DNA from: Pelodictyon luteolum DSM 273
Lineage (GTDB): Bacteria > Bacteroidota > Chlorobiia > Chlorobiales > Chlorobiaceae
Length of the DNA stretch: 64,000 nt
NCBI RefSeq assembly: GCF_000012485.1
Contig: NC_007512.1
Span: forward strand, 1,551,001 to 1,615,000
Direction of reading: 5' to 3'
In this document: in pieces, positions 340 through 29,001 of the stretch
Layout of the letters: each line of letters starts with the position of its first letter
How positions within the stretch are numbered: the first letter of the stretch is position 1
Position numbers and translations under genes: made by a program
Notes under the pieces: model-generated
Databases searched by the model: none
Seen by the model: only the letters and a program-made list of their open reading frames with translations
Told to the model about the DNA's origin: nothing

Positions 340-1580
340 AAAAGAAACCGTATGATCAATTGCGGAAAATGAAAGAGAAACATTCGACACGGTTATGCAT
401 AGCTTACGCTGCCGGACCGGGTGATATCGTTAAAACATTTTCCTACTGGCAGAAAGGAAACGACGACCCTCATCAGGTTTCGACAACCTATAGCGCAATG
501 TTCTTTGATGCATGCCGTTCGCTCAATGCGAGGGGTATCGCCATTTCTTCATGCCCCAGAAAAGACCGTATCGTCACGGACCGGTTCCATGTCGAAAACC
601 TCCCTAAAAATCCGCAAGCGAATGCCATTGCGTTTCATAAGGAACAGGTCAGCTATGTTCTAAGGGTTGCTGATTTTGCTAAAAAGCAGGGTGCAGACTT
701 CCTGATCCTCAGTGAGGCTACAGGATATTTTTTCCCGCTTCTATGGGCAATACCCTCAAGGATGAAGCTGATCCCCACGCTGCACTGCAACCTCAAGTCT
801 CGTTTTCGGCCTCTCTCTGCAGCTCAGAAGCTGATACAGTTCATGAATGCTATGTTTTTCATCAGAAAAGCATCGGCCATCATGTCCGTTTCACCAAGCG
901 TAACCGAACAGATTGAGGGGATGACTTACGCCATGGCCTCACCGGTCCATCGCTTCTATCAGCTCTATCGACGAAAGTATTTTGAGTGTATCAACCCGCC
1001 AATACATCATAATAAACCCTTCAATATTCTGTTCGTAGGGCGGATGGAAACCGATAAAGGCATTTTTGACCTGCTTCAGATCGCCAGGGACCTCAGAGAA
1101 AAAGGACACACGGACATCGTCATCAATCTTTGTGGTGGAGGATCAGAAGAAACCGGGCTGCGCATGGCAGCATCAGCGTATGGGATAGAGGAAACATTCC
1201 GAATCCATGGCTTCTGCCGCCAGGACGAAATGCTTGAGCATATCAACAATAGCCATGCATTCATCGTGCCGACAAGAACAACATTCGAAGAAGGGTACAA
1301 CAAAGCACTTGTGGAGGGGCTGCTTTCAGGAAGACCGGTCATCACATCCATTGTATGCGCCTACCCCCACCTTGAAGAGCTCAACAGCGGAATCATTCTT
1401 GTCCCGCCTGATGAAACTGAAGGGTACCGTGAGGCCATTGAACGACTGGCTTACGACAGCGCATTTTATGCAGAAAAACAAAATGGAACTCAGAGGGGCA
1501 TGGAACCATTTTTCGACCCGGCATGCTCTTGGCAGGCCGTGCTAGAACGCATCATTACAAACATACGGAAGCATGGGTAA
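336..1580 (+). CDS. Glycosyltransferase, GT4/GT1 superfamily
   Basis: 414 residues, GT-B fold. The C-terminal half has the group-1 glycosyltransferase signature: ILFVGRMETDKG near residue 233, a nucleotide-binding stretch, and the E-x7-E motif in FEEGYNKALVE. It should add a sugar from a nucleotide-sugar donor to a lipid-linked oligosaccharide at the cytoplasmic face; donor and acceptor cannot be told. The start is GTG, overlapping the upstream TGA; an in-frame ATG at 369 (codon 12) is the alternative. The 3' end overlaps the polymerase gene by 8 bases, which puts it in the polysaccharide operon. Confidence 0.85.
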   Translation: MKKKPYDQLRKMKEKHSTRLCIAYAAGPGDIVKTFSYWQKGNDDPHQVSTTYSAMFFDACRSLNARGIAISSCPRKDRIVTDRFHVENLPKNPQANAIAFHKEQVSYVLRVADFAKKQGADFLILSEATGYFFPLLWAIPSRMKLIPTLHCNLKSRFRPLSAAQKLIQFMNAMFFIRKASAIMSVSPSVTEQIEGMTYAMASPVHRFYQLYRRKYFECINPPIHHNKPFNILFVGRMETDKGIFDLLQIARDLREKGHTDIVINLCGGGSEETGLRMAASAYGIEETFRIHGFCRQDEMLEHINNSHAFIVPTRTTFEEGYNKALVEGLLSGRPVITSIVCAYPHLEELNSGIILVPPDETEGYREAIERLAYDSAFYAEKQNGTQRGMEPFFDPACSWQAVLERIITNIRKHG

Positions 1581-3009
1581 TCCCGGAGCTAACATTCTGG
1601 TGCCCTTAGCCTTTTTCCTCTGGCCTGGCGTTGTCATTCTGCTGTACAAGAAGCTGGATAAACGACTTGTACCGGTCATTGCCTATGTCGCAGGCTGGAT
1701 GTTTCTGCCGTGCGCGGAGTATGATATCTTCATGCTGAAAAACACCAAATCAACAGTAATTGGATACAGCCTGCTTGCCGCAACATGGCTCTTTGACAAA
1801 GAAAAACTGCTCAGCTACCGATTCCGCAGCATAGATATCCCCATAATATTATGGTGTACGACCCCTTTTTTCTCTTCACTCGCCAACGGGCTGGGAATAT
1901 ATGATGGCTTGGCCTCAACACTCTACACCACAATTAAATGGGGGATCCCGTACTTTTTTGGCCGGGTCTATTTTAACGAAAGCGATATTCTCAAGACCCT
2001 TGCAATAACCATTTTCATCGGCGGGATCATCTATATCCCTTTCAGCTGGTTCGAACTCATCATGAGCCCGCAGCTTCACCGACTCACATACGGATTTCAT
2101 CAGCATGACTTTCTCCAGACACTCAGGGAAGATGGAGGATATCGCCCCATGGTCTACATGAACCATGGCTTGATGACCTCTATGTGGATGATGCTTGCTT
2201 CACTCCTTGGAATGTGGCTTTACATCACGAAAGTCCTTCCAAAGAAAATCTTTTTTCTTCCGTCATCCTTACTGCTGGCCCTCCTGATTGGTACATTTTT
2301 AATGTACCAATCAATGGGAGCCATATTTTATTTCGCGATGAGCCTGCTGATCCTATACATTGGCATCAAATGGAAAAACGCCGTTCTCGTCATAGTCTTG
2401 CTCGTGACGCCATATATCTATATCTTTTCAAGATCTACTGGATCTTGGGATGGAACAAATCTCACCAATTACATCGCAGAGAAAATCAGCCCGGCCAGAG
2501 CACAGTCACTGCAATTTCGCTTTGACAACGAAACGATCCTCATTGATAAAGCGCTTCAGGGCAGTTTTTTTGGCTGGGGAGGCTACGGTCGGGCAAGGGT
2601 CTTTACTGATAGTGGAAAAGATCTTTCCACTACAGATGGCCTTTGGGTCATAACACTCGGAAATCAGGGGAGCTATGGATTGTTATGGCTGCTTTTTGCT
2701 GTACAGCTGCCAACCATATTTTTCATCAGCAGGAAAAAGCCCGTTCAATGGGAATCGCCTGCATATGCGGCGCCGGCAGCAATGGCTGTTTTCATCGCGT
2801 TCACAATGGTAGACAACCTTCTGAATGCGATGGTCAACCCTATTTATCTCGTCTTTGCAGGGGGGCTTCATGGTTTACTGCTCAACAAAACGGACTTAAG
2901 CCTTGAATCGAGCGAAGAAACAGAACTCGACCTGTTCAGAGAATTCGACAAACTAACAAGCAGATTCCTTTCTGATCCTGGAAATTCGCAATCAAAATTC
3001 ATCAACTGA
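1573..3009 (+). CDS. Wzy-like O-antigen polymerase / ligase membrane protein
   Basis: 478 residues with about ten to twelve hydrophobic segments and a large polar loop around residues 290-340 (after IFSRSTGSWDG), the usual layout of the O-antigen polymerase/ligase superfamily. Such proteins join lipid-linked repeat units into a chain in the inner membrane, with the big loop on the periplasmic side. Sequence conservation in this superfamily is low, so the call rests on topology and on the genes around it. The C-terminal 40 residues are acidic and cytoplasmic. It overlaps the upstream glycosyltransferase gene and is followed after 5 bases by a VanZ-like gene. Confidence 0.7.
   Translation: MGNPGANILVPLAFFLWPGVVILLYKKLDKRLVPVIAYVAGWMFLPCAEYDIFMLKNTKSTVIGYSLLAATWLFDKEKLLSYRFRSIDIPIILWCTTPFFSSLANGLGIYDGLASTLYTTIKWGIPYFFGRVYFNESDILKTLAITIFIGGIIYIPFSWFELIMSPQLHRLTYGFHQHDFLQTLREDGGYRPMVYMNHGLMTSMWMMLASLLGMWLYITKVLPKKIFFLPSSLLLALLIGTFLMYQSMGAIFYFAMSLLILYIGIKWKNAVLVIVLLVTPYIYIFSRSTGSWDGTNLTNYIAEKISPARAQSLQFRFDNETILIDKALQGSFFGWGGYGRARVFTDSGKDLSTTDGLWVITLGNQGSYGLLWLLFAVQLPTIFFISRKKPVQWESPAYAAPAAMAVFIAFTMVDNLLNAMVNPIYLVFAGGLHGLLLNKTDLSLESSEETELDLFREFDKLTSRFLSDPGNSQSKFIN
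2288..2310. repeat. Perfect 10-bp inverted repeat inside the polymerase gene
   Basis: The arms TTGGTACATT and AATGTACCAA flank a TTT loop, giving a perfect hairpin inside coding sequence (codons for the segment around LIGTFLMYQSMG). No T-run follows, so it does not read as a terminator. Its function is unknown; it may be chance. Confidence 0.5.
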
Positions 3010-3014
3010 CTCCC

Positions 3015-3368
3015 ATGTCAACCAAGAATAAACTAAAAACAGCCTGGCTGGCCGCATTCATTCTGCTCCTTACGGCAAGCTTTTCTCCGGGAACAGATTC
3101 CTCAAGGGTGTTCGGACTGGATATCGTTTTTCATCTCGGGATCTATGCCATCCTGGCGGCAGTTCCCCTCATTGCCCTGAAAAAACGCCTGACGGCGTTT
3201 CTCGTCGCATTAGCCATTGCCCCATTGGGCCTTCTGTTTGAAACGATGCATGGTTCGACAACCGGATACGGCTTCAAGATGATGGATGCTTTTTACAATA
3301 ACCTGGGGATTACGGTTGGCATGATCACTGGCATCATGGTTCGATTGAAACATCATTACGAAAAATAA
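3015..3368 (+). CDS. VanZ-like family small membrane protein
   Basis: 117 residues with four predicted membrane segments. The pattern fits the VanZ-like family: a first helix, a D-x-x-x-H pair in LDIVFHLGIYAILA, a polar face with E in LLFETMH, and D-x-x-x-N in MMDAFYNNLGITVG. VanZ-like proteins often lie in exopolysaccharide loci, including exosortase-type ones, but their biochemical role is not settled. The gene starts 5 bases after the polymerase stop and ends the first operon; 220 bases without a gene follow, holding a sigma-54 promoter. Confidence 0.7.
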   Translation: MSTKNKLKTAWLAAFILLLTASFSPGTDSSRVFGLDIVFHLGIYAILAAVPLIALKKRLTAFLVALAIAPLGLLFETMHGSTTGYGFKMMDAFYNNLGITVGMITGIMVRLKHHYEK

Positions 3369-3529
3369 TCCCGGAACCACATCGCATAGACACCGCAAGT
3401 ACCTATAGCTCTCAATTAGAGAGCCCCCTAGCAGTCCACACCTCTCCAGATGCCAGCACGGCCTCACCGCCGCATCCAGCAGATCCCGTAAGCCTTTATA
3501 AATGAACGGCATAACGATTCGCATGGTTT

Positions 3530-3544
3530 TGGCACATGTTTTGC
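3530..3544 (+). promoter_or_regulatory. Sigma-54 (-24/-12) promoter of the second polysaccharide operon
   Basis: TGGCACATGTTTTGC matches the RpoN consensus TGGCAC-N5-TTGC, with GG and GC exactly 12 bases apart. Transcription would begin near 3556. That lies downstream of the first in-frame ATG (3536), so translation of the radical SAM gene must start later, at ATG 3590. No activator site was identified upstream. Confidence 0.75.
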
Positions 3545-3589
3545 GTGTATGAGTCAGAGTACGATTCATCCAGCAAAAAACTGCGCCCC

Positions 3590-4669
3590 ATGCATCTCAC
3601 AGAACTGCTCGCTCTCGGATTGAAGCACGGACGGAACACCATAGCCGAATCGGCCTATATTCTCGCCGATATCGATTTCACCCGGCCAGTCACATTCCAT
3701 GCCCTTCTCAATGAAAGGTGCAACTGCCTTTGCCGTCACTGCGACCACTGGCGCCTTGACAAATACACTGACGAGATGGGGATAGATGAGTGGAAAAAGA
3801 CACTGCTGAGCATCAGAGACTTCACTGGTTCCTATGCAATAAATTTCAGCGGAGGTGAACCTCTTATCAAGAAAGGCTTCATTGAGCTGCTGAATTTTTG
3901 TTCATCAAACAGCATATACGCCGGTATGACTACCAACGGAATGCTGCTTGAAAGACACGCGGCCGAACTGGTTGCCGCAAGGCCATTCAATATCAACATT
4001 TCACTCGACTCCCATAAGGCAGACACGCACGACTATATCAGGGGACGCGAAGGACTGCACGAAAAAATATGCAGGGGGATAGCACGCCTGAAGGAAGAGC
4101 AGAACCGCCAGGCAATCAGCTTTCCCATCATCATCAAGCCGACCGTCATGTCGCTCAATTACAGGCACCTGCCCGAGCTTGTACATTTTGCTGAACAACT
4201 CGGCGTATCAGCAGTAAACTTCCAGCCGCTCGGGAGGTGGACGGAAGAGACCAATAATGAACTGTGGATCGAAAAGGAAGAGTGGCCAAACCTCGAGAAT
4301 GTCATGCAACGCCTGATCGTCATGAAACGGGAAGGCGCTCCTATCATGAACAGCGAGGAAATACTCGGATTGATGACCGCCAGTTTTCGGGAGGAAAAAG
4401 CATCCACGGATAACCTACCCTGCCGCATCGGCCTCCACGAGTACTTCATTCGCCCAGACGGTGACGTCAAGCTATGTTTCCATTTCCCCTCCGTCGGTAA
4501 TGCATCTAAGCTCTCGGCAAAAGAAATTTGGCGGGGAGCGGAGGCACAAAAAATCCGAAAAGCCACGCTTCAATGCGACAAACTATGCCTTCTAACCTGC
4601 CTCTCACAGAAATCACTAGGCAACAAGATCAGTCAAGCAATCACGATGCTTTCGGGACAAAAAAAGTAA
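3590..4669 (+). CDS. Radical SAM / SPASM-domain protein
   Basis: 359 residues. The radical SAM cluster motif C-x3-C-x2-C is at Cys44, Cys48 and Cys51 (CNCLCRHC), followed by a glycine-rich SAM-binding stretch NFSGGEPL. A C-terminal SPASM-like region has spaced cysteines (LPCRIG, VKLCFHF, LQCDKLCLLTC) for auxiliary Fe-S clusters. Enzymes of this type modify peptides or do other radical chemistry; the substrate here is unknown and no small precursor peptide is visible nearby. I chose ATG 3590 because the sigma-54 promoter would start transcription after ATG 3536. It is the first gene of a run of glycosyltransferases, and its stop overlaps the next start as TAATG. Confidence 0.8.
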   Translation: MHLTELLALGLKHGRNTIAESAYILADIDFTRPVTFHALLNERCNCLCRHCDHWRLDKYTDEMGIDEWKKTLLSIRDFTGSYAINFSGGEPLIKKGFIELLNFCSSNSIYAGMTTNGMLLERHAAELVAARPFNINISLDSHKADTHDYIRGREGLHEKICRGIARLKEEQNRQAISFPIIIKPTVMSLNYRHLPELVHFAEQLGVSAVNFQPLGRWTEETNNELWIEKEEWPNLENVMQRLIVMKREGAPIMNSEEILGLMTASFREEKASTDNLPCRIGLHEYFIRPDGDVKLCFHFPSVGNASKLSAKEIWRGAEAQKIRKATLQCDKLCLLTCLSQKSLGNKISQAITMLSGQKK

Positions 4670-5778
4670 TGCACAAGGAACCTCCGGCCATGACCCATTT
4701 GAGCAGCAAGACACAAGCGCCCGATAACGCTTTGCCTCACATCGACTGTGTACTCATCGGAATCAATAGTGAAAAAACGGTGGGCCGCTGCATCGAATCT
4801 ATCCAGGCAGCAGATTACCCTAGGGACAGACTGCATATCTACTACGTCGATGGAGGATCTTCAGATGCAAGTATTCTCATAGCCAAACAGTATGAAGGGG
4901 TCATAACCATTGCACTCAGGCCAGTGCATCCAACCCCTGGACTCGGCAGAAACGCCGGCTGGCAAACCGGTTCATCTCCCCTGATCCAGTTTCTCGATTC
5001 TGACACCATACTTGATCGCAACTGGTTCTCGAGCGCAATCAAAGCGATAAGACCTGAGAAGATCGGAGCCGTTCAGGGGATACTTAGCGAATTGTACCCT
5101 GAGAGGTCTTTCTATAACTGGATCGGAAATCTGGAATGGAACGGCCTGAAAGGAGAATGCGAATCATTCGGGGGTAATGTGATCGTCAAGCGTGATGCCC
5201 TTGAAATGACCGGCGGCTATGATGAGGAGATGGTCGGAGGAGAAGACCCTGAACTCAGCAGACGAATCATCAGAGCTGGCTGGAAGGTCATTCAGACCGG
5301 GGTGCCGATGGCGCAGCATGATCTGGCAATGACACGTTTCAAACAGTACCTCCGCCGAACTTTCCGCACCGGCTATGCCTTTGCTGCCGTAAGAGAGCGG
5401 GAACGCTCCGCTGGAAGTCGTTTCTGGCAGTACGAATACCGAAAGATCATTATCAAGGGGGGAGGATTTTCCTTCAGCCTACTTCTTGCAATCCCCCTCA
5501 TGGCAGTCGGAGCTCCAGCACCTAGCATCACAGCACTCGCGTTGGTAGCGCTGGGCACAGCCCTGCTCCTGAACCCGCGAATTTTCAAGGTAGGCCAATT
5601 CATGCGTGAACAGCAGCTTGAGCGCAAAGATGCCAGGATATATGCTTGGCACTGCTCTCTTGTCGTACTCCCACAGCTAGCTGGAGTACTCCGCTACCAC
5701 ATAGGACGCATATTTAATCAACCTCTTCGGAACCGGCCGGCCAGGATAGCATCAGAAATTTCAGTCCAGACACCATGA
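4669..5778 (+). CDS. Family 2 glycosyltransferase with C-terminal membrane segment
   Basis: About 369 residues. The GT-A domain begins at HIDCVLIGINSEKTVGRCIESI; the metal-binding D-x-D is in FLDSDTILD, and an acidic catalytic segment appears as VGGEDPELSRR. A hydrophobic stretch near residues 265-305 anchors it to the membrane. It probably adds a sugar to the growing lipid-linked unit. Two starts are plausible: ATG 4669, coupled to the upstream stop as TAATG, or ATG 4690, preceded by AAGGA at good spacing. Its 3' end overlaps the next gene as ATGA. Confidence 0.85.
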   Translation: MHKEPPAMTHLSSKTQAPDNALPHIDCVLIGINSEKTVGRCIESIQAADYPRDRLHIYYVDGGSSDASILIAKQYEGVITIALRPVHPTPGLGRNAGWQTGSSPLIQFLDSDTILDRNWFSSAIKAIRPEKIGAVQGILSELYPERSFYNWIGNLEWNGLKGECESFGGNVIVKRDALEMTGGYDEEMVGGEDPELSRRIIRAGWKVIQTGVPMAQHDLAMTRFKQYLRRTFRTGYAFAAVRERERSAGSRFWQYEYRKIIIKGGGFSFSLLLAIPLMAVGAPAPSITALALVALGTALLLNPRIFKVGQFMREQQLERKDARIYAWHCSLVVLPQLAGVLRYHIGRIFNQPLRNRPARIASEISVQTP

Positions 5779-6998
5779 ACAAGGCCACAACCATAGCCTA
5801 CCTCTGTAGCGAATACCCAGCCGTTTCGCACACTTTCATTTTCAGGGAAATCGAATCGCTCCGCCAGGCAGGCATTCTGGTACATACCGCCACCATACGC
5901 AGGACGTCAAACTTGGGATTGATGACCGCGAGCGAACAGGATGAGGCCAAGCGCACCTTTGCCGTGATCACCGAGCCCCTCCCCGCAATATTCAAGGCTC
6001 ATGCAAAAAGCCTGATCAGAAACCCGGCAGGCTACCTGCGTATGGCCGCCGCGGCACTGAAGCCGGCATTCACCGGCCCCTGCAAGCCAATCAAGGCCGT
6101 AGCATACTTCATCGAAGCAGGCATTCTTCTCGAATGGCTACACGGACTAAGCATCACTCACGTCCACGAGCATTTCGGAAACCCGACCGCCATTGTTGCC
6201 ATGCTGATGAAAACCTACGGCGGCATTTCCTACAGCATCTCAGTCCACGGCCCCGACATTTTCTATCAGATTGATTCAGCCATGCTCGATGAGAAAGTCC
6301 GCCATGCCAGCTTCGTCCGCTGCATCAGCCATTACTGCCGGAGCCAGATCATGCGCATCAGCCCCTCGTCGATGTGGGAAAAACACCATATCGTCCGGTG
6401 CGGGGTTGATCCTGACACCTGGTTGCCGCGCCCCGAGCCCGATAACGAGGTGCCACAGTTGCTCTGCGTAGGCAGGCTAGTACCGGCAAAAGGCCAGCAC
6501 ATCCTGCTGAATGCCTGCGCACTACTGAAAAATGAGGGGGTGCGCTTCCATCTCACGCTTATCGGAGACGGCCCTGACAGGACATCACTGGAACAGTTCA
6601 GCCGTGAACATGGGCTTGAAGGCGCAGTCAAATTCACTGGCATCCAAGGCCAGGACAAGGTGCGGGAATGGTACGACATGGCTGACATGTTTATCCTTGC
6701 CAGTTTCGCCGAAGGTGTTCCCGTCGTCCTGATGGAGGCCATGGCCAAGGAGATTCCGGTCATCTCCACCCGAATCACCGGTATTCCCGAACTTATCGAA
6801 CATGGCCATAACGGACTGCTTGCAACCCCCGCAGATACCGAAGACCTTGCCAGAAAGATCCGCACCCTGATTGAAGATCCTGAAATGCGGAAACGATTGG
6901 GCCGTGAAGGACGGAAGAGCGTCGAACGCCGATACAACCAACACATCAACAACAATAAAATGGTCGACCTGTTCAAACAGGCCGTTGCGCAGGCATGA
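5775..6998 (+). CDS. Glycosyltransferase family 4, WcaL-like
   Basis: 407 residues, GT-B fold. The N-terminus (YLCSEYPAVSHTFIFREIESL) is the form seen in colanic-acid WcaL-like transferases. The C-terminal domain has LLCVGRLVPAKG and the E-x7-E motif in FAEGVPVVLMEAMA, which bind the nucleotide-sugar donor. It is expected at the inner face of the cytoplasmic membrane, building the repeat unit. It overlaps both neighbours by 4 bases (ATGA at each end), so the operon is tightly coupled. The sugar transferred cannot be read from sequence. Confidence 0.88.
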   Translation: MNKATTIAYLCSEYPAVSHTFIFREIESLRQAGILVHTATIRRTSNLGLMTASEQDEAKRTFAVITEPLPAIFKAHAKSLIRNPAGYLRMAAAALKPAFTGPCKPIKAVAYFIEAGILLEWLHGLSITHVHEHFGNPTAIVAMLMKTYGGISYSISVHGPDIFYQIDSAMLDEKVRHASFVRCISHYCRSQIMRISPSSMWEKHHIVRCGVDPDTWLPRPEPDNEVPQLLCVGRLVPAKGQHILLNACALLKNEGVRFHLTLIGDGPDRTSLEQFSREHGLEGAVKFTGIQGQDKVREWYDMADMFILASFAEGVPVVLMEAMAKEIPVISTRITGIPELIEHGHNGLLATPADTEDLARKIRTLIEDPEMRKRLGREGRKSVERRYNQHINNNKMVDLFKQAVAQA

Positions 6999-26547: not shown

Positions 26548-26632
26548 TGGGATGCATTGAATGGGGAGGGCTTAAGCCAGGATTAAGTATGATCGGGTAA
26601 CAGCGGCGTATTACTACGCCACCGTCCCCTCA

Positions 26633-26666
26633 GAACCCGGCGTACGACTTTCACCGTACCGGGCTC
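26633..26666 (-). ncRNA. Group II intron domain V
   Basis: Exactly 34 bases: begins GAGCC (containing the AGC catalytic triad), has a GAAA tetraloop at positions 15-18 and closes with GGGTTC. The two arms pair along almost their whole length with a two-base bulge on the 3' side. This is the most conserved part of group II ribozymes and fixes the strand and approximate 3' end of the intron. Confidence 0.85.
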
Positions 26667-26964
26667 AAGCCTCGCAAAAGCACACAAGTGCACCCAGTAA
26701 GGATATAGTCCTTACCTCTACAGTAGAACCGCAGCCTGCTTGATCACAATGATCTTGATGGCGCACACATGGATATAAATCCACGTACATTTGCTTTCCA
26801 TCATAATGCAGGTTCTCCGGCATTTCTGTAGCGCGAGACCTCAAGGAAGTCTGCCTGCTTTCGCATGGGGTGATGTTGCAACCCCTATCTGGTCCATTAC
26901 AGGCCAGCATTCGCTTTCTCCTTGATCTTCTGCCCACAGCTCCATGGTCATTCCTTGCGGTTTG

Positions 26965-26990
26965 ATTGCCTTACAAATTGTAAGGCGGAA
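26965..26990. repeat. 9-bp palindrome inside the intron
   Basis: GCCTTACAA and TTGTAAGGC flank a single A, making a strong hairpin between the intron's domain I-III region and domain V. It could belong to domain III or IV; the assignment is uncertain. Confidence 0.5.
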
Positions 26991-27502
26991 CTATGGGTTT
27001 ACCGTGTTCCGCAGATTGAACATGCGAACGAGTTAGGCCCCGTCTTTCCGCCGGCGGGAGTTATCGACCGTGTAGAGGAACACCGGTTACCTCTATCCAA
27101 CCCGCTTACCTTTTGGTTCGAGTGTTACAGTAGCTTTCACTCGTCACACTTTACGGCAGTTACGACGATTCACATATGTTGGCCATATCGCGCTCCCTCT
27201 TGCCCCTCTCCGCCTGCTACTGGCAGATTCAGCGTTCCCTCACGGGTCGGCCTACAGTTTTTCTGCGGGTACGTTTATCCGAGAGCTTCACACAAGTTGG
27301 TTACCCTGCTTGCATGTCTCGGTGAGGGCAACAGACGGCACTGCTGGTTCAAAGAACAGTTCAATTCTGCGACTTCACGTCGCACCCGGCGCAAGTGTAC
27401 TAACGCCTCTTATGCGGACCGGCAAGGTTCTAAACTTTAGGGATGAGCGGGTTACGGCCTATGACGAGAAGGCTGGCAGGAGGTATACCGTCAGTCAGAA
27501 GC

Positions 27503-28033
27503 TCACCCGACACTGATGCTGAGGTTCTTGCTCATTTTCTTTGCCATCTGCACCTTCGGATCATCAGCAGTGATCTTCGGCCGCCCCCCCTTCTTGCCTT
27601 TTGACCGGGCGGCCTTCAACCCTGCCTGCGCCCGCTCCTGGATCAATCGCCGCTCGAATTGCGCCAGGGTAGCGAAGATGTTGAACACCATCTCGCCGGA
27701 CGCGGTGGTGGTATCAATACCGCCGTCACTGATTGAGCGGAACCCTACTCCCCGGCCCTTCAGCTCTTCGACGATCTCGATGAGGTGTTTCAGGGACCGG
27801 CCGAGTCGGTCCAGCCGCCAGATGACGAGCGTATCCCCTGCCTGCAGTTCCGTCATGCAGGCTGCGAGACCCGGCCGTTCCGTTTTTGCTCCACTTGCCT
27901 TGTCGATGAAGATGAGTTTGTCAGGTATGCCGGCTTGCTTCAGGGCATCAAGCTGCAGGTTGAGTTCCTGACCGGTAGTCGAGACTCGGGCATAGCCTAT
28001 CTGCCTTCCGGTTTTTGTTGTTGTATCGGTCAT
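27503..28033 (-). CDS. Serine recombinase (resolvase/invertase family), C-terminus truncated
   Basis: 176 residues. The catalytic domain is intact: the nucleophile Ser18 is in [10 protein letters not shown], with RLDRLGRS and the long E-helix region [22 protein letters not shown]. The tail reaches [18 protein letters not shown] and then stops shortly after NLSIS. Relatives continue there into a DNA-binding helix-turn-helix, so about 15-20 residues are missing. The divergence point coincides with the estimated 5' end of the group II intron, which would explain the loss. Without the HTH it probably cannot bind its site, so it may be inactive. Confidence 0.85.
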
Positions 28034-28518
28034 TCTTTAAAACGGCTTGTTTTTATGGGTAGATGGACTATAGAAATACAGTACGCATTTATAAGACAGA
28101 TGCGGCCCGGAAAAGGGGGCATTTCTACCCCCTTACCAGCTGTCTCATAACACGACCGCTTCGCAATGACACTGCTCGGCATTTGAGGGGCCTTCCAAAG
28201 GCGCCTGAAAATGTCGCGAAACTCATTCATCACATAAAAGTCCGGAAGGCAGAGGCTTTGTAAATTCAATGTACGGGCTCATCACGGGCTTATTTGACCC
28301 TCATCCGGGTCACAGGCACAAAAAAAGACAACGCCAAAAGCATCACCGCCGCCGCGTGAGGGCCAATCGTGTCTTTTCTGCAACAATGAAGGTGGCGGTT
28401 CAGGGATTCAGGCTCCCAGCTTGTTTTTCTCAAAAGCCCTGCGTATGATGAAGGAACAGGTAGGGAAATGCCGCCGCCCGCGGCAGGAATTCCACGAACC
28501 CCAAGACGGAGGAGCACC
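28034..28518. other. 485-base stretch without a gene, with hairpins
   Basis: No convincing reading frame. It holds the inverted repeat at 28089-28150, a small hairpin at 28176-28204 (GGGGCCTT against AAGGCGCC), and the 8-bp pair AAAAGACA (28323-28330) / TGTCTTTT (28370-28377). It probably contains the promoter of the minus-strand recombinase, its possible recombination site, and the leader of the AlbA_2 gene. Confidence 0.5.
28089..28150. repeat. Nested inverted repeat upstream of the recombinase gene
   Basis: Outer arms TTATAAGACAG (28089-28099) and CTGTCTCATAA (28140-28150) match at 10 of 11 positions. Inside are AAGGGGG (28113-28119) and CCCCCTT (28128-28134). It begins 56 bases before the recombinase start, so it may be a recombinase site, a short mobile-element remnant or a terminator-like hairpin. 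Confidence 0.5.
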
Positions 28519-29001
28519 ATGCATCTCATCCGCCGCCCGCATTCCGCACGCCCCCTTCTCGAGCTCGTAGGAGAAGGAGAGGGACTATACACCGAATTCA
28601 AGCGGAAAGTCCACTCACCCCAGAAAATCGCCCGTCCAATAGCCGCATTCGCCAACACCGGCGGAGGCGTCATGCTCATCGGCATTGACGATGACGGAAG
28701 CATTGTCGGCATCCAGAGTGAAAAAGAAGCGCTTGAAGTCGTCTATGAGGCAATCCGCCACCATATCGACCCCGTCCCCGACGTCGACGCCTACATTGAA
28801 ATGCACCGCCGGCGTATGGTTCTGGCCATTGTCGTCCCCGAAAGCGCCCGGAAGCCCCACTTCCACCTCAGCACGGCCATCGACAGCAACACGGGGAAAT
28901 CCTGTACGGTACGGAAGGTCTATTTCAGGGAAGGGAGCCGCAGCAGGGCGATGACAGACGAAGCCGCCTTCCGCATGAAGTCAGCGGCCGGCTGCAGGTG
29001 A
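28519..29001 (+). CDS. AlbA_2 (Schlafen-type) putative DNA-binding protein
   Basis: 160 residues. ATG 28519 is preceded by a strong GGAGGAG site. The fold is shown by the family's opening EGEGLYTEFKRKVH, then AFANTGGGVMLIGIDDDGSIVGI, then VVPESARKPHF and TVRKVYFREGSRSRAM near the end. The AlbA_2 domain is thought to bind nucleic acid and often appears alone or fused to helicases or wHTH domains; here it is alone. It lies beside the mobile patch and converges on the gene at 29002 with no gap. Its role is unknown. Confidence 0.85.
   Translation: MHLIRRPHSARPLLELVGEGEGLYTEFKRKVHSPQKIARPIAAFANTGGGVMLIGIDDDGSIVGIQSEKEALEVVYEAIRHHIDPVPDVDAYIEMHRRRMVLAIVVPESARKPHFHLSTAIDSNTGKSCTVRKVYFREGSRSRAMTDEAAFRMKSAAGCR

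Follow-up and report, generated by a model that had tools for sequence, protein, structure and literature searches.

The window, a 64,000-nt stretch of Pelodictyon luteolum DSM 273 (contig NC_007512.1, positions 1,551,001 to 1,615,000), carries on its minus strand a 794-nt ORF-less group II intron at 26592-27385, which is CL/IIB-like and has the ends GUGCG...CCCGAU (Table 1). The surroundings of the intron are debris of other mobile elements. The adjoining stretch 27386-27513 is exon and holds a transposase fragment as well as the tail of a serine resolvase/invertase gene. The transposase fragment gives DNA matches of 79-81% to places in other Chlorobiaceae, and its counterpart at one of these loci (L055) belongs to a transposase frame with PF01609. 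A Schlafen/AlbA_2 domain (PF04326, E 1.4e-20) was found in a 177-aa frame at window positions 28468-29001 (plus strand).

Table 1. Features of the intron, its exons and the related RT-bearing intron of the same genome (window positions unless a contig or locus is named; a slash marks the junction).
Feature	Position	Strand	Basis or remark
Complete ORF-less group II intron	26592..27385	-	Rfam; empty site (L077, G028); alignment with relatives
Domain VI, bulged branch-point A at 26598	26595..26629	-	RF00029; pairs kept across 13 introns
Domain V, 34 nt	26633..26666	-	RF00029; compensatory changes across 13 introns
IEP frame remnant (start-codon region and last codons ...CEA-stop)	26665..26790	-	translation beside RT-bearing relatives
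Mini domain IV and D3/D4 border	26671..26855	-	common only to ORF-less introns
EBS1, CCGGUGU	27080..27086	-	7/7 pairs with IBS1, 2 GU
EBS2, AAGUGUG	27145..27151	-	7/7 pairs with IBS2, 1 GU
Domain I core	27202..27347	-	RF02012
IBS1, GCGCCGG, last 7 nt of 5' exon	27386..27392	-	pairs with EBS1
IBS2, UACACUU	27393..27399	-	pairs with EBS2
Predicted spliced exon junction		-	...ACACTTGCGCCGG/CATACTTAATCC; GCGCCGG/CATACTT
Transposase fragment (DDE_Tnp_1 type) on 5' exon side, antisense to intron	27443..27505	+	DNA match
Serine resolvase/invertase gene, same strand as the intron and upstream of it	27503..28033	-	PF00239, E 3.6e-46
RT-bearing intron of locus L012	L012:4838-6996 = G000:C1:751837-753995	-	
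IEP of the L012 intron, 495 aa	G000:C1:751913-753397		RT, RVT_N and maturase (GIIM) domains

Boundaries and exon pairing

An unoccupied site was found in genome G028, where the joined flanks of the window's intron match without gaps over 465 bp (98.9% identity), and both ends of the intron are therefore exact to the base; comparison of the joined flanks with this empty site showed no target duplication at the insertion site. Homology to the RT-bearing intron of the same genome starts at GTGCGACG, position 27385, with a GUGYG start, and the minus strand reads GTGCG...GAT, in agreement with GUGYG...AY ends. The empty site confirms the 3' end at 26592 given in the original prediction, while the 5' end that had been placed at 27513 is 128 nt off; this position is ruled out by the empty site and by the homology to RT-bearing introns.

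The first reading had also found no convincing EBS1-IBS1 pairing, which was overlooked because the 5' splice site had been misplaced; counted from 27385, EBS1 and EBS2 both pair with the 5' exon over their full length. When random stretches of the window were taken as 5' exon, 20 of 100,000 matched both EBS pairings as well. Across 15 introns of the family, the EBS/IBS score was 275 with the introns' own exons versus a mean of 146 (maximum 225) with swapped exons, and 0 of 20,000 swapped-exon trials reached the own-exon score; an ORF-less copy in G013 is among the members that pair poorly. With regard to the EBS3-IBS3 partner of IIB introns, no column is compatible with every intron; the best one pairs in 10 of 14.

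Ribozyme structure

Covariance models from Rfam identified the domain I core with RF02012 (93.3 bits, E 4.2e-18, full model 1-151) and domains V-VI with RF00029 (60.8 bits versus a gathering threshold of 40, E 1.8e-9, 26592-26668, minus strand), which bears out the 34-nt domain V, the domain VI stem and the domain I-like stem that had been described from the letters. The bulged A of domain VI, which was read from the sequence, is located 7 nt from the 3' end of the intron. Among 13 introns, 10 pairs of domains V-VI were changed on both sides, a value reached by 0 of 500 shuffles, and the whole 794 nt folds with z = -6.15 relative to shuffles.

Loss of the IEP and the mini domain IV

The segment was correctly described as ORF-less; its longest same-strand frame has 90 aa, and a genome-wide RT search gave no RVT_1 match within the window. 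Domain IV opens close to where the IEP frame starts in RT-bearing relatives and consists, in this order, of the first ~11 IEP codons, a non-coding filler and the last codons before the stop. The N-terminal remnant reads MNTDFSVCAPS in the ORF-less copy of G080, as compared to MNTDLSVCAPS in an intact IEP. Judged from these remnants, most of the IEP coding sequence between them is deleted; a hidden or frameshifted RT frame is ruled out, as the 41-codon remnant is all that remains. The same deletion scar is present in G080, G073, G059 and G013, and hence in all five full-length ORF-less introns including that of the window. Five covarying pairs are found among the consensus helices of the mini domain IV.

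Distribution and insertion sites in the Chlorobiaceae

Copies or pieces of the mini domain IV were found in the window's genome (G000) and in G025, G013, G059, G073, G080, G032, G075, G060 and G022, with a further piece in G036; all carriers, about ten genomes besides the window's, are Chlorobiaceae, and the copies occupy different sites. The mini domain IV was absent from 12 genomes that represent other families of the order, and a pattern made from it matched 8 loci, in Chlorobiaceae only, in a collection of named species. P. luteolum CIII (G025) carries a 100% identical copy at the same site as the window's intron, and partial copies of 98% identity, which adjoin ATACACTTTCGCCAG or AATACTC, are found at other sites in CIII and in Chlorobium sp. 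N1. Two genomes are multicopy: in G060, at least 7 ORF-less copies are represented by their 3' ends, and G075 has several copies. Most copies in draft genomes are fragments at contig ends; those at contig ends in G060 and G075 are 5' or 3' parts only, and 3' parts were scored as ORF-less only when the domain-IV filler was present. ORF-less introns at L088, L122 and L108 (G075) and at L103-L107 (G060) adjoin an intergenic repeat; their 5' flanks resemble GGTCCTATGGGACT, and most of their 3' flanks start with TAT. The window's genome also contains, at L015:4574-4694 (G000:C1:1178573-1178693, minus strand), a 122-nt decayed piece of domain I, which resembles the window's intron (85% identity) more than it does the RT-bearing one.

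In G054, an RT-bearing intron is inserted at a site of the same type, GTACACTTTCACCGG/AATACTC. This insertion-site motif was present in 23 of 86 genomes (reversed control, 0); since it often lies within arrays of similar repeats and, in G035, adjoins istA/istB-type genes, we read it as a terminal repeat of IS21 type, of which a degenerate form occurs at the window's site.

Mosaic history of the ORF-less introns

Over intron positions 541-660, the window's intron is 73-83% identical to other ORF-less introns as compared to 15-65% to RT-bearing introns; before position 540, it is not consistently closer to the ORF-less introns. In trees, the base of domain IV (the D3/D4 module) forms one clade (99/98, with the G075 copy included), but trees of domains I-III reject a single ORF-less clade (AU p 9e-51 and 2e-63), and a single origin of ORF-less introns as whole units is rejected by these tests. 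One clade for the module but not for domains I-III suggests that the ORF-less module has moved between intron backbones; the simplest account of these sequences would be a single deletion event, after which the deleted domain IV was transferred to other backbones by recombination.

In an RT intron of G022 (L076:3778-3860), domains V-VI are 96% identical to those of the window's intron and the 5' part 74%, a further sign of exchange between introns. Nested introns (twintrons) were observed at L068:2118-5473, L096, L066 and L080, located either in another intron's IEP gene at the GFDF/LGW codons or in domain IV near the IEP start.

A possible helper IEP

A search of the window's genome for a related RT-bearing copy found the L012 intron, whose IEP has an intact frame. 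This intron is inserted in sense orientation within an outer-membrane-protein-like gene (exons ...YYDMD/MENVLPYV...) and shows a 7-nt EBS1/IBS1 pairing. A domain search gave no HNH endonuclease match in the L012 IEP, and its closest solved relative is PDB 6me0 (E 4.8e-188), which we take to be the TeI4h maturase. A second copy at 2.03 Mb has an identical 3' part of the RT intron and otherwise reads N; ~5 kb of N precede this 3' part (L013:~1500-6501, G000:C1 about 2027500-2032500) and an integrase-type transposase gene follows it. Further RVT_1 matches of the genome lie in 297-aa and 177-aa frames at L002 and L003 (G000:C1:991421-991939 and 1002841-1003116, respectively, minus strand).

The L012 IEP is a possible helper for the window's intron. 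It belongs, however, to a different backbone (73% identity over domains I-III) with a different domain-IV base and therefore may not act on the window's intron. A cognate IEP was not seen in the drafts of G025, G060 and G073, where IEPs of at most 39% identity were found, and the drafts of G059 and G080 gave no IEP at the cut-off, G059 being without any maturase domain found; as these carriers are draft genomes, this absence is not proof.

Discussion

We consider it probable that the window holds a structurally intact ORF-less CL/IIB-type intron that derives from an IEP deletion, is spliced and retrohomes with the help of an IEP made by another intron, and belongs to a clan of such introns. 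An RT-bearing intron would have lost nearly the whole domain-IV IEP; the ORF-less intron would be transcribed from the upstream resolvase side and its splicing aided by an IEP from another intron. The intron RNP with the borrowed IEP would then retrohome to sites that match EBS1 and EBS2, TACACTTNCNCCGG/NATACT, a target that resembles the terminal repeats of IS21-type elements, and the clan sharing one domain-IV deletion would in this way have spread to many Chlorobiaceae sites. The sequence establishes where the intron begins and ends, its fold and EBS-IBS pairing, the scar of the deletion, the presence of several copies at several sites, and the common descent of domain IV; splicing, a helper protein and retrohoming are what we infer for the window's intron.

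The original prediction had proposed an intron that is either mobile only in trans or a dead relic. The first part fits, and the best reading is a mobile intron that is competent to splice and depends on help in trans, comparable to those of Thermosynechococcus; a relic does not agree with the D5-D6 covariation, the EBS-IBS pairing and the near-identical copies. A decaying deletion derivative that has lost splicing would explain the loss of the IEP as well as the decayed clan piece in the same genome (L015), but intact domains I, V and VI, intact termini, both EBS-IBS pairings and the compensatory changes in domains V-VI make this very improbable. Less far from the data, yet still unlikely, is an intron that was recently immobilised, i.e., that still splices (alone or with a maturase), no longer moves and is inherited vertically; the 100% identical copy at the same site in P. 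luteolum CIII agrees with this, as does the finding that CIII shows only an IEP 34% identical to the cognate one, and introns without IEPs have been described as splicing-only elements (PMC4424553). The 98% identical copies elsewhere in CIII and in Chlorobium sp. N1, together with the multicopy genomes G060 and G075, point instead to recent movement of the clan.

With regard to how the clan arose, ORF-less introns might have originated repeatedly and independently, with a domain IV that converged, e.g., through binding of one driver IEP. The scatter of ORF-less introns in the trees of domains I-III is what such origins would predict, but the identical deletion points, the non-coding filler common to all and the single clade formed by the domain-IV base leave this the least probable of the explanations considered.

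Relation to known systems

A multi-species, multi-copy ORF-less clan with a common domain-IV module provides a test case for the parting of introns from their proteins, and dependence of introns on a common trans-acting protein is a step that has been proposed on the way to the spliceosome. As different backbones carry the same domain IV, in genomes with and without a cognate IEP, helper specificity is directly testable.

We found no description of ORF-less group II introns of green sulfur bacteria in the literature searched, although an earlier survey may have listed the window's intron. The closest relatives are those CL-type introns of Chlorobiaceae that bear an RT, L012 among them; they share ~70-79% identity over domains I-III and similar domains V-VI, but their domain IV contains a ~495-aa IEP and has another base. 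C.te.I1 of Clostridium tetani, by description, is likewise a bacterial ORF-less intron, and its genome is reported to lack a related IEP (PMC4424553); by contrast, the window's genome has one, and the Chlorobium clan extends over several species and looks mobile. In kind, the window's intron, which is ORF-less and presumably a trans-dependent mobile group II intron, is of the sort known from Thermosynechococcus elongatus, where Mohr et al. (2010; PMC2882425) described TeI3 ORF-less introns driven by TeI4 IEPs. Both systems show one deletion of the domain-IV IEP with N- and C-terminal remnants left, good EBS/IBS pairing at many sites, RT-bearing relatives within the genome itself, and twintrons; the Chlorobium IEP is also a very near match to PDB 6me0. 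The Chlorobium clan differs in that it extends over many species of one family rather than over one genome, in that some carriers (drafts) show no cognate IEP, in that its IEP is without an HNH match, and in that the deleted domain IV sits on at least two separate D1-D3 backbones; the Chlorobiaceae lineage is not described in the literature searched, and its domain-IV module appears to have been exchanged between backbones.
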